Below, in pieces: positions 42,844 to 46,520 of a stretch of 53,093 bases of DNA. Within the stretch, counting starts at the first letter, position 1. Each line of letters opens with the position of its first letter. A model generated the notes under the pieces. That model was not told where the DNA came from and ran no database searches. It worked only from the letters and a program-made list of their open reading frames with translations. A program made the translations under genes and the position numbers. Source of the stretch: Clostridium sp. (GTDB lineage: Bacteria > Bacillota > Clostridia > Lachnospirales > Lachnospiraceae); contig JAMPFF010000017.1 in assembly GCA_023664605.1 (NCBI GenBank), positions 1-53,093 on the forward strand. The letters run 5' to 3'.

Positions 42844-42873
42844 TTGACGTATCTCGGCTTTTTAACATATAAT
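42844..42873 (+). promoter_or_regulatory. Promoter of the pfl operon
   Basis: TTGACG (42844-42849) and TATAAT (42868-42873) are 18 bases apart. Transcription would start near 42880, giving a leader of about 88 bases before pflB. No clear Rex or FNR-type operator was recognised. Confidence 0.75.
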
Positions 42874-42967: not shown

Positions 42968-45007
42968 ATGAGACCAGAATGGAAAGATTTTGTAGGCGGC
43001 AAATGGGAAAATGAAGTTAATGTGCGCGACTTCATCCAGAAAAACTATCATCTCTATGAAGGTGATGAGTCTTTCTTAGCCGGCCCTACACAAAACACAA
43101 AAGACTTATGGGCGCAGGTTCTTGATTTACAGAAACAGGAACGTGAGGCAGGCGGTGTACTTGACATGGACACCAAAGTTATTTCCACTATCACATCCCA
43201 CGGACCGGGATATCTGGACAAGAGCAAAGAGAAAATCGTTGGTTTCCAGACAGACAAACCTTTCAAACGTTCCTTACAGCCTTACGGCGGTATCAGAATG
43301 GCAGAGAAAGCTTGCTCTGACAATGGTTATGAAGTTGACCCTGAAATCAGTGAGTTCTTCTCCACACACAGAAAAACACACAATGCAGGCTGCTTCGACG
43401 CTTACAATCAGGAAATGAGAGCATGCCGTTCCTCCCATATCATCACAGGTCTTCCGGATGCTTATGGACGTGGACGTATCATCGGCGACTACAGACGTGT
43501 CGCTCTGTATGGTATTGATTACTTAATCGAAGACAAACAGGCTCAGAAAGATTCTACAGGACGTGTTATGACAGATGATGTTATCCGTCTTCGTGAAGAA
43601 CTCTCCGAGCAGATGGTTGCTCTTAAATTAATGAAAGAAATGGCTGCTTCTTATGGCTGCGACATTTCCAAACCTGCTACTAACGTACAGGAAGCTATTC
43701 AGGCAACTTACTTCGGTTATCTGTGTGCTGTTAAGGAGCAGAACGGCGCTGCTATGTCTCTCGGACGTACTTCTACATTCCTTGACTGCTATGCAGAAAG
43801 AGACTTGGCAAACGGTACATTCACAGAAGAGCAGATTCAGGAATTTGTTGACCACTTCATCATGAAGCTGCGTCTGATTAAATTCGCTCGTACACCGGAA
43901 TACAATCAGATTTTCGCTGGCGACCCGGTATGGGTAACAGAATCCCTCGGCGGTGTTGGCGTTGACGGACGTCCGTTAGTATCCAAGATGAGCTTCCGTT
44001 ATCTGCACACATTGACAAACCTTGGACCTTCTCCGGAACCGAACTTAACAGTTCTCTGGTCTACAAGGCTTCCTGAGAACTGGAAGAAATACTGCGCTAA
44101 GATGTCTATCCAGACTTCTTCCATCCAGTATGAGAACGACGACTTAATGAGAGTAACACACGGTGATGACTACGGTATCGCTTGCTGTGTATCTTCTATG
44201 GTTATCGGTAAAGAAATGCAGTTCTTCGGCGCACGTGCAAACCTTGCAAAATGTCTGCTCTACGCGTTAAACGGCGGTGTTGACGAAGTTACCAAGAAAC
44301 AAGTTGGACCGAAATATCGTCCTGTTGCCGGTGATGTACTTGACTATGATGATGTATATGACAAATTTATGGATATGATGGAGTGGCAGGCAGATGTATA
44401 TGTAAATACATTGAACATCATCCACTACATGCACGACAAATACTGCTATGAAAGAGCAGAGATGGCTCTTCATGACAGAGACGTAAAACGCTACTTCGCA
44501 ACAGGTGTAGCTGGTCTGTCTATCGTAGCTGACTCCTTATCAGCTATCAAATATGCAAAGGTTGAGCCGATTAGAGATGAAGACGGTATCATCGTTGACT
44601 TCAAGACAACCGGCGACTTCCCGAAATATGGTAATGATGATGACCGTGTTGATACGATTGCACAGGATATCGTGCATAAGTTCATGACGGCAATCAGAAG
44701 ACATCATACCTACAGAAACGGTGTTCCTACAACTTCTATCCTTACTATTACTTCCAACGTAACTTACGGTAAGGCTACAGGTAATACACCTGATGGACGT
44801 AGAAAAGGACAGCCGTTCGCTCCGGGCGCTAACCCGATGCACGGACGTGATACTCACGGTGCAGTAGCTTCCTTATCTTCCGTATCCAAACTTCCGTTCA
44901 AGGATGCACAGGATGGTATCTCCAACACATTTACCATCATTCCTGGCGCACTTGGTAAAGAAGACAAGGTATTTGCAGGAGATATTGAGGTAGACCTCAA
45001 CAAATAG
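42968..45007 (+). CDS. pflB: Pyruvate formate-lyase catalytic core lacking the glycyl-radical domain
   Basis: A 679-residue protein; a full PFL is about 740-760. PFL turns pyruvate and CoA into acetyl-CoA and formate. The catalytic Cys pair is C406-C407 in [11 protein letters not shown]; the substrate Arg regions and [17 protein letters not shown] are present. The sequence ends GDIEVDLNK just where the C-terminal glycyl-radical domain normally begins. That domain is a separate gene at 45262. The start is ATG 42968, 10 bases after AGGAGG; a longer frame to 42920 lies in the leader hairpin. Codon use is strongly optimised (few rare codons), suggesting high expression. Confidence 0.94.
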
Positions 45008-45018
45008 GGTGGATGTAT

Positions 45019-45222
45019 ATGGACGAGAATCAAATGATTGATGATTTTGTGAAGATGTTGGATGCGGGTATGGCACAGGGCGTTGGACATGTAAACGTCG
45101 ATGTTGACAATGAAACTGACGCCGCTAAGAAAGTACAGACAATGGGTTGTACGGATTGTTCCAGAACCCCGTTAGCTTGCAGCGTTCCAACTTTAGAGCA
45201 AGGTCTGGACGACTTCCACTAA
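45019..45222 (+). CDS. Small Cys-containing protein between the PFL core and the glycyl-radical protein
   Basis: A 67-residue protein. Residues ~5-31 (QMIDDFVKMLDAGMAQGVGH and on to NVDVDN) align with residues 6-32 of the glycyl-radical protein encoded next ([20 protein letters not shown]), about 9 identities in 23. The two then diverge: it lacks the RVSGYAV radical loop and carries C44, C47 and C54 (GCTDCSRTPLAC). It may be a diverged duplicate of the start of the radical domain. The ribosome site AGGGTGG gives 6 bases to ATG 45019 and none to ATG 45013. No function is known to me. Confidence 0.85.
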   Translation: MDENQMIDDFVKMLDAGMAQGVGHVNVDVDNETDAAKKVQTMGCTDCSRTPLACSVPTLEQGLDDFH

Positions 45223-45261
45223 ACGATAAGAAAAATAATAAATTTAAAGGAGGAATTTATC

Positions 45262-45504
45262 ATGGCAGCAAATACAGCTCAAGTTGATAACTTAGTATCT
45301 TTATTAGATGGTTACGCAACCAAAGGCGGTCATCATCTTAATGTAAATGTACTGAACAGAGATACTTTATTAGACGCTCAGAAACATCCTGAGAATTATC
45401 CTCAGTTGACAATCCGCGTTTCCGGTTATGCAGTAAACTTCATCAAATTAACACCGGAACAGCAGGCTGACGTTATCTCTCGTACATTCCATGAGAGCAT
45501 CTAA
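45262..45504 (+). CDS. grcA: Stand-alone glycyl-radical domain protein, GrcA-like
   Basis: An 80-residue protein that equals the missing end of [23 protein letters not shown] is the PFL region after the core, and [18 protein letters not shown] is the radical loop, with G55 the radical-bearing residue. E. coli GrcA (YfiD) is a spare radical domain for oxygen-damaged PFL; here the core has none of its own, so this protein probably supplies it in trans. AAGGAGG is 7 bases before the start. Shared transcription with pflB and the 67-residue gene is expected; a terminator follows. Confidence 0.9.
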
Positions 45505-45522
45505 TCAGATGAAATAATCCAG

Positions 45523-45561
45523 ACAGGGCTTTGAAAAAGTTTTTCAAAGCCCTGTTTTTAT
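45523..45561 (+). terminator. Terminator after the glycyl-radical protein gene
   Basis: A perfect 15-bp stem, ACAGGGCTTTGAAAA (45523-45537) with TTTTCAAAGCCCTGT (45541-45555), is followed by a T-run. It would separate the pfl structural genes from the activase at least in part. Confidence 0.92.
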
Positions 45562-45596
45562 CTGGTTTTTTTGCCCAGCACGGGTTATACTATATA

Positions 45597-45698
45597 CGAG
45601 AAAATCGCTACGCAATTATCCACGAGAAAATCGCTACGCAATTATCCACGAGAAAATCGCTACGCGATTATCTCGGGAAGAATGTTTTGCATTCTTCC
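45597..45698. repeat. Three tandem 26-base palindromic repeats and a flanking hairpin
   Basis: CGAGAAAATCGCTACGCAAT-type units are at 45597-45622, 45623-45648 and 45649-45675; the third is a fuller palindrome (CGAGAAAATCGC and GCGATTATCTCG). They are followed by GGAAGAATG/CATTCTTCC (about 45676-45698). Downstream of the hairpin the sequence GGAATTTCTTATTATATA recurs in slightly altered form by the copy at 51697. The units resemble REP-like mobile palindromes; head-to-tail copies with no spacer are not a CRISPR. Confidence 0.75.
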
Positions 45699-45755: not shown

Positions 45756-46520
45756 ATGGAAGGAAGAATACATTCTTTAGAAAGTTTCGGTACGGTAGAC
45801 GGTCCCGGCGTCAGATTCGTTGTTTTCGTACAAGGTTGTCCGATGCGATGTGCCTACTGCCATAATCCCGATACTTGGGAAATGAATGCCGGCACTTTAA
45901 TGGAACCGGAATATATTATCGAACAATATGAACGAAATATCAGTTTCTATAAGGGCGGCGGCATTACCGTAACAGGCGGCGAGCCTTTGATGCAGGTCGA
46001 TTTTCTGCTCGATTTATTTACGCTTGCCAAAAAGAAAAACATCCATACCTGCATCGACTCTTCCGGCATTGCCTATAAAACAAACGCCAACCCGGAATGG
46101 CTTGCAAAACTGGATAAATTAATGACTTTGACCGACCTGGTCATGCTGGATATCAAACACATTGACCCCGAAAAGCATAAGGAATTGACTTCCCAGCCAA
46201 ACGACGGGATTCTTGCCTTTGCAAAGTACCTTGATGAAAAAGATGTCGATATGTGGATTCGACATGTCATTGTTCCGGGTATTACGGATGATGACAAATA
46301 TTTATTCGACCTCGGTTATTTTATCGGTCAATTCAAAAATTTAAAGGCATTGGACGCGCTTCCTTATCATACAATGGGAAAAAGTAAATATGAAAAGCTG
46401 GGTATGGAATATAAGTTAAAGGACGTTCCCGCGATGGAACAAAAAGACCTGCTCGCCAAAAAAGAAGTGATTCTGGACGGCATCCGCAAACGCCGTGCAG
46501 AACTTGCCGCTGACAATTAA
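45756..46520 (+). CDS. pflA: Pyruvate formate-lyase activating enzyme (radical SAM)
   Basis: A 254-residue radical-SAM enzyme that makes the glycyl radical. C28, C32 and C35 in QGCPMRCAYCHNPDT bind the [4Fe-4S] cluster; FVVFVQGCP, ITVTGGEPLMQ and the VPGITD loop are typical. A longer open frame to 45531 crosses the terminator and repeats and has no role. AGAGGG is 9 bases before ATG 45756. Its partner is the small glycyl-radical protein at 45262. The ferredoxin at 46645 could supply electrons for radical formation. Confidence 0.95.
   Translation: MEGRIHSLESFGTVDGPGVRFVVFVQGCPMRCAYCHNPDTWEMNAGTLMEPEYIIEQYERNISFYKGGGITVTGGEPLMQVDFLLDLFTLAKKKNIHTCIDSSGIAYKTNANPEWLAKLDKLMTLTDLVMLDIKHIDPEKHKELTSQPNDGILAFAKYLDEKDVDMWIRHVIVPGITDDDKYLFDLGYFIGQFKNLKALDALPYHTMGKSKYEKLGMEYKLKDVPAMEQKDLLAKKEVILDGIRKRRAELAADN

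Follow-up and report, generated by a model that had tools for sequence, protein, structure and literature searches.

Pyruvate formate-lyase (PFL), which converts pyruvate to formate, is an oxygen-sensitive enzyme central to fermentation in gut anaerobes. In Escherichia coli, oxygen cleaves PFL at G734, and the small protein YfiD/GrcA substitutes for the damaged part. Excerpts of one study (PMC8683613) report that binding of YfiD to an E. coli PFL truncated by removal of residues 696-759 was undetectable by ITC, that activation of this form was 32-fold below that of cleaved PFL and that, once activated, it had wild-type activity; residues 696-733 were proposed as a recognition element. An excerpt of a second study (PMC12338860) gives intermediate formate amounts for E. 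coli PflB G734A combined with GrcA.

The locus considered here lies in a 53,093-nt stretch of a Clostridium sp. genome of the family Lachnospiraceae (the window). While E. coli PflB carries its radical domain within the polypeptide, the core protein encoded in the window does not. This core scores 1098.6 bits with TIGR01255 (cut-off 994.2), the match spanning profile positions 2-665 of 744, and is identical to E. coli PflB at 435 of 685 aligned positions. Residues R176, W333, C418, C419 and R435, which we take to be the catalytic residues of the E. coli enzyme, align with R170, W322, C406, C407 and R423. The alignment ends at V668 (E. coli V680); 11 further residues have no counterpart, and the core thus stops short of the radical domain. 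The Gly loop is encoded by a separate gene, whose ATG is 254 bases from the core stop and whose product passes the NCBIfam model NF038360 (GrcA3) with 161.3 bits against a cut-off of 158. Like GrcA/YfiD, GrcA3 is free-standing and carries an RVSGYAV loop, here with G55; by homology, it is a predicted substrate of PFL activase. An earlier, sequence-only reading of this DNA had described a 679-residue core that keeps the C406-C407 pair and ends before the radical domain, with the loop and G55 in an 80-residue protein further on; the profile match and the alignment with E. coli PflB agree with the former, and the residues and coordinates of the latter are correct. An AlphaFold2 model of the core had a mean pLDDT of 36.1, and a PDB fold search with this poor model was unproductive.

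Table 1. Features of the PFL locus, in their order on the + strand of the window
Feature	Position	Strand	Remarks
Sigma-70-like promoter match	42844..42873	+	TTGACG, 18 nt, TATAAT; 11/12, consensus match only
PFL core, 679 aa, pair C406-C407, no radical domain, C-terminal tail without cysteine	42968..45007	+	
Middle protein, 69 aa (67 aa from ATG 45019), radical-domain-like aa 9-34 plus cysteine tail, no Gly loop	45013..45222	+	
Cysteine motif of middle protein, CTDCSRTPLACSVPTLE	45148..45198	+	Alignment of 25 diverse members
GrcA3, free-standing glycyl-radical protein, 80 aa; Gly55 codon 45424-45426	45262..45504	+	
Intrinsic terminator 3' of the radical gene	45524..45559	+	Fold of 45515-45570, -25.1 kcal/mol, z -6.24
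PFL activase (radical SAM)	45756..46520	+	TIGR02493 293.6 bits, cut-off 231.75
Ferredoxin-like protein, 56 aa	46645..46815	+	Named by eye, two CxxCxxC motifs

The remaining parts of the locus are listed in Table 1. By eye, a GGAGG sequence precedes both the core and the radical protein, and a GGTGG precedes the middle ORF. The activase and the terminator named in the sequence-only reading are present, the latter as a strong hairpin with a T-run that is absent from the listing of a pattern scan. Three tandem copies of a 26-base unit (45596-45672) lie between terminator and activase. The ferredoxin-like protein is perhaps the electron donor of the activase. An Rfam scan of the window gave 0 matches.

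The possibility had been raised that a second, full-length pflB served as the main enzyme of this organism. No full-length PFL of the TIGR01255 type was found in the genome, and a hidden copy was rejected as an explanation on that ground; with the assembly 95.5% complete, a gene may nevertheless be missing from it. A PF02901 search led to two places. One is the window core; the other, on contig C27, encodes an 845-aa enzyme of the TIGR01774 type (802.2 bits, with only 167 bits for TIGR01255), which includes a radical domain and, by eye, is accompanied by a separate activase. Five TIGR01255 matches were counted in this genome, and the window core is the sole one among the matches listed. Two further proteins (L006 and L007, on contigs C42 and C26), in which the match to PF01228 stops at position 70 of 106 and which carry CPKCGS/CPVCGS motifs, are by eye likely to be class III RNRs.

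The split is real and common in Lachnospiraceae. In a sample of 200 genomes of the family, searched with the TIGR01255 and GrcA3 profiles, free-standing GrcA3 occurs in 80, a split core in at least 70 and a fused PFL in at least 75; the last two counts refer to the TIGR01255 matches listed and are lower bounds, while the free GrcA3 rows all lie above the score cut of their listing. Overlaps between listings are based on genome handles transcribed by hand. Every one of the 70 genomes with a listed split core has a free-standing GrcA3, and reading of the 70 split loci, one per genome (the window and 69 others), found no Gly loop in the frame of the core; the split is therefore not a matter of chance, and its conservation across the family, which the sequence-only reading had proposed to check, holds. 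E. coli GrcA repairs a full-length PFL; in the source genome none was found, and a listed fused PFL accompanies free GrcA3 in only 3 of the 80 genomes (among the matches listed). In a sample of 398 genomes from the phylum, 5 of them listed as family members, GrcA3 exceeded the cut-off in 2 genomes (G000 and G180), both of the family; other matches fell in PFL-length frames, save three of lower score, whose frames have 110, 198 and 252 residues. With 80 of the 200 sampled genomes concerned, PFL has its vulnerable radical domain as a cheap separate part in a substantial portion of this important gut family.

A conserved extra piece accompanies the split. The sequence-only reading had envisaged a two-part enzyme. 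That the radical domain is encoded in trans and that no full-length pflB was found bear out this proposal in part, but the conserved ORF between core and GrcA3 had been missed; since this ORF is a conserved component, the window holds a three-part system, not a two-part one. The start codon of the middle ORF is perhaps the ATG at 45019 and not 45013. All 30 aligned rows have a Met at the former place, although 29 of them are relatives that had been trimmed to begin at the last Met before the match. The protein has no Pfam match at E values up to 1; its only NCBIfam match is below threshold and covers positions 3-30 of 78 of GrcA3 (E 0.0064). Compared by BLASTP with the GrcA3 of the window, it gives an E of 3e-5 over 26 residues, and comparison of the middle and GrcA3 profiles, some rows of which include untranslated leader, yields a probability of 95.4 and an E of 1.9e-8 over 40 columns preceding the Gly loop. 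When the phylum was searched with the middle profile, full-length matches were confined to the family; beyond it, 5 genomes belonging to other families showed weak matches to the same pre-loop segment of fused PFLs. These alignments show that the N-terminal half of the middle protein resembles the helix and strand of the radical domain; in E. coli PFL, the likeness extends to part of residues 696-733 plus the helix before them. The similarity is limited to the helix and strand ahead of the loop; the middle protein has no RVxGY, and in place of the loop there is a C-x6-C-x-[IV]-P tail. In an alignment of 25 diverse members, D17, G25, H26, C49, A55, C56 and P59 are invariant; C46 is not.

A single-sequence search detected the middle protein in 53 of the 200 family genomes, with one match each. 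Of these 53, 52 belong to the 80 genomes with free GrcA3, and none to the 72 for which a fused PFL alone is listed. The remaining one, G006, is an assembly of 67% completeness in which TIGR01255 matched nothing. Scanning of named genomes with the middle protein gave 454 pattern matches, of which 442 were confirmed and 80 kept. Where a title gives a family, it is nearly always Lachnospiraceae, and Acetatifactor muris DSM 23669 and Kineothrix alysoides KNHs209 are among the isolates; a few metagenome-assembled genomes labelled, for example, Bacillus sp. or Muribaculaceae were taken as mislabels. At these 80 loci the order is core, middle gene, radical gene and activase in 62; core, middle gene and radical gene in 14; core and middle gene in 2; and middle gene, radical gene and activase in 2. 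None has a fused PFL, and the 18 loci that lack the complete set were counted irrespective of contig ends. Some members deviate. The middle ORFs of L073 and L077 end just after the first CxxC (CTDCAK and CTTCSQ), so that the motif lacks its second half, and the protein of L085 departs from the cysteine motif. By eye, the homologues L038 and L035 (genomes G002 and G006) lie beside a MoxR-like ATPase gene and a glycosidase-like gene, and the stretches read around them contain no PFL core.

The cysteine tail is not always borne by a middle protein. Among the 70 split loci, 27 carry it on the C-terminus of the core itself and 41 have a middle gene; the remaining 2 have neither in adjacent position, one (L066, G130) being a split core without cysteine tail or middle-protein match, the other (L105, G002) having its sole detected middle homologue on another contig (L038). 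The two placements are mutually exclusive: two or three cysteines follow the ALGK of the core in 27 of 27 two-part loci, in none of the 41 three-part cores and in neither of the 2 others. In the remainder of the cores, cysteine makes up 1.1-1.5% of residues. An example of a two-part core tail is IEDCKDLACNIPNIEDSIDNE; 11 of the 27 tails misfit the strict motif, yet all have two to three cysteines. As read from the linkers of 20 fused PFLs (L113, L115-L118, L109-L112, E. coli and L208-L217; L114 and L119 were left out), the motif is lacking in 19 and found in one (L208). On a core tree built without the tail columns, from which trimming dropped L113 and L115-L118, the state changes between tail and middle gene about 10 times, with at least 4 changes forced by well-supported branches. 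On the tree without re-fused rows, the ancestral state slightly favours a tail on the core (10 versus 12 changes).

Ten further fused PFLs were fetched. Nine could be placed on the tree (L216 was dropped by trimming, here and in the AU test), and six of them fall inside the split group (group support 95). One of the six, L208, is a single open frame comprising core, cysteine tail (TCGCEEVTCAV) and radical domain. The other five (L209-L213) form a clade (99) in which the core is joined to a GrcA3-like domain (147-160 bits) and the tail is gone. No listed free GrcA3 and no middle-protein match were found in the genomes of L208-L213. The AU test does not reject a single clade of split rows (p 0.111); hence the nested re-fusions rest on SH-aLRT support, on the GrcA3-like domains and on L208. 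Should this nesting hold, the tail belongs with the split state, and one re-fusion out of two has lost it. A single irreversible split, which earlier trees had suggested, was abandoned once the added fused rows put six PFLs inside the split group. The L208 fusion can also be described as a Rosetta-stone arrangement, its radical domain being GrcA3-like.

The closest solved relatives by sequence are PDB chains 38lb and 38la. Chain A of 38lb (739 aa, 'Formate acetyltransferase') groups with the split cores on two trees (support 99 and 94; L109-L112 were dropped by trimming from the former), gave no GrcA3 match in a PDB search and, leaving its last 34 residues aside, has a tail of its own (...GECDMCEMKELDDV) after the core. 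It looks like a split core and, unlike the window, bears the tail on the core itself, which is the two-part arrangement. Chain 38la ends at LGKED, be it naturally or by trimming. Both chains are missing from the best 50 rows of the fold search and so are probably newer than the PDB copy used, which ends on 8 April 2026. Our search of open-licence PMC papers, which does not extend to bioRxiv and is weak evidence of absence, found no description of a split PFL, the middle protein or GrcA3. NCBI has a name for GrcA3 and 38lb resembles a split core, so others probably know of the split already; what we regard as new is the middle protein with its shifting cysteine tail.

Given the resemblance of the middle protein to the E. 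coli recognition stretch, core, middle protein and GrcA3 together look like a gene-encoded counterpart of cleaved PFL, stub and spare part. On balance, we thus lean towards a PFL held permanently in the spare-part state, with the tail at the open site of the radical subunit; E. coli PFL, by contrast, enters that state only once oxygen has damaged it and the spare part has repaired it. The core would supply the active site and the radical SAM activase would activate GrcA3 at G55. GrcA3, which very probably acts in trans, would dock so as to place its glycyl radical beside C406-C407. A piece matching the lost covalent radical domain would have been retained as the cysteine tail, on the core or on the middle protein, and is probably a working part of the enzyme. 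While GrcA3 is undocked, it would occupy or guard the radical-domain site and with its dithiol keep C406-C407 reduced or covered; the site would afterwards pass to GrcA3. In favour of this reading are the free GrcA3 that goes with every listed split core, the mutually exclusive placement of the tail, the restriction of the middle protein to loci with core or GrcA3, its likeness to the radical domain, its apparent constraint, the re-fused PFLs and the two E. coli studies. Against it stand L066 and L105, the middle ORFs of L073, L077 and L085, the tail retained by L208 despite fusion, and the 11 two-part tails outside the strict motif. Split PFL offers a natural test of spare-part repair, and also a small protein family with a specific, testable role.

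The suggestion of a dithiol draws on class I RNR. E. coli NrdA ends in DDGCESGACKI, and split PFL tails such as DGCGDMACKVP show similar spacing and neighbours; like RNR, the PFL tail or middle protein has a conserved Cys pair near the C-terminus. In an excerpt of PMC11143221, the C-terminal Cys pair of RNR is said to re-reduce the active-site disulfide. The two tails share a likeness, not a demonstrated homology, and a redox role in PFL would follow by analogy only; that the job of the tail is to act as a dithiol guard of C406/C407 is to our mind possible, though short of probable. A more elaborate version, which we regard as unlikely in its entirety, likens GrcA3 and the decoy with its dithiol tail to a radical cartridge and a guard cartridge that alternate in one socket of the core. 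After exposure to air, the guard would re-reduce or shield C406-C407 and the radical cartridge would then be inserted; upon re-fusion the guard would be useless and lost.

The tail might instead form a metal or Fe-S site, or serve as a docking peptide for activase or ferredoxin, and so aid the activation of GrcA3 instead of guarding the active site; such a role fits the observed distribution of the tail equally. The presence of two to three cysteines in each tail would suit this idea, as would the ferredoxin-like ORF that a motif script located close to where the activase gene ends in 52 of the 60 named loci whose flank was long enough, and the importance of E. coli residues 696-733 for assembly and activation reported in the PMC8683613 excerpts. 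However, only two cysteines of the middle protein are invariant, the spacing in the 16 two-part tails that fit the motif varies from 1 to 7, and a PDB search with the middle profile returned 4 hits, none significant (best E 0.34). We consider such a role rather unlikely.

Alternatively, the middle protein could be an inhibitor, that is, a decoy competing with GrcA3 for the docking site and keeping the enzyme off. Its position directly 3' of the core stop and its possession of the helix and strand but not of the Gly loop would be in keeping with this role; yet the 27 loci with the cysteine tail on the core do without the decoy half, which favours a function of the tail itself, and we consider this explanation unlikely.

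A third alternative sees the middle ORF as a decaying, functionless remnant of the original radical domain. The PFL profile does continue beyond the core stop in G099 and G110, as if collinear with a lost domain, and the AlphaFold2 model of the middle protein is of low confidence (mean pLDDT 52.9, with helix 5-17 only). Against this, pN is below 0.13 and pS above 0.6 (the latter near saturation) in 13 of 13 pairs, so that the ORF looks constrained as a protein; C49, A55, C56 and P59 are invariant throughout the 25 diverse members; and a middle ORF stands beside 41 of the 70 split cores, with the tail on the core in 27 others. Decay is thus highly improbable. Lastly, nothing was found to suggest that an ordinary pflB had been broken by a frameshift or an assembly error. 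This was rejected as practically impossible, given that 70 genomes have split cores, the single-contig assemblies G085 and G046 among them, and that isolates such as the two named above have the middle gene with its neighbours. The sequence-only reading had already argued against a simple frameshift from the separate ribosome site of each ORF.

The source genome contains a second GrcA3 gene, unlinked and nearly identical to the window copy, on contig C12 (L003:1441-1749, - strand). By eye, it adjoins a polynucleotide phosphorylase-like gene, and the stretch read contains no PFL core. Two copies of GrcA3 are present in 11 of the 80 genomes with the free-standing protein. Such second copies would be compatible with an exchangeable radical subunit.
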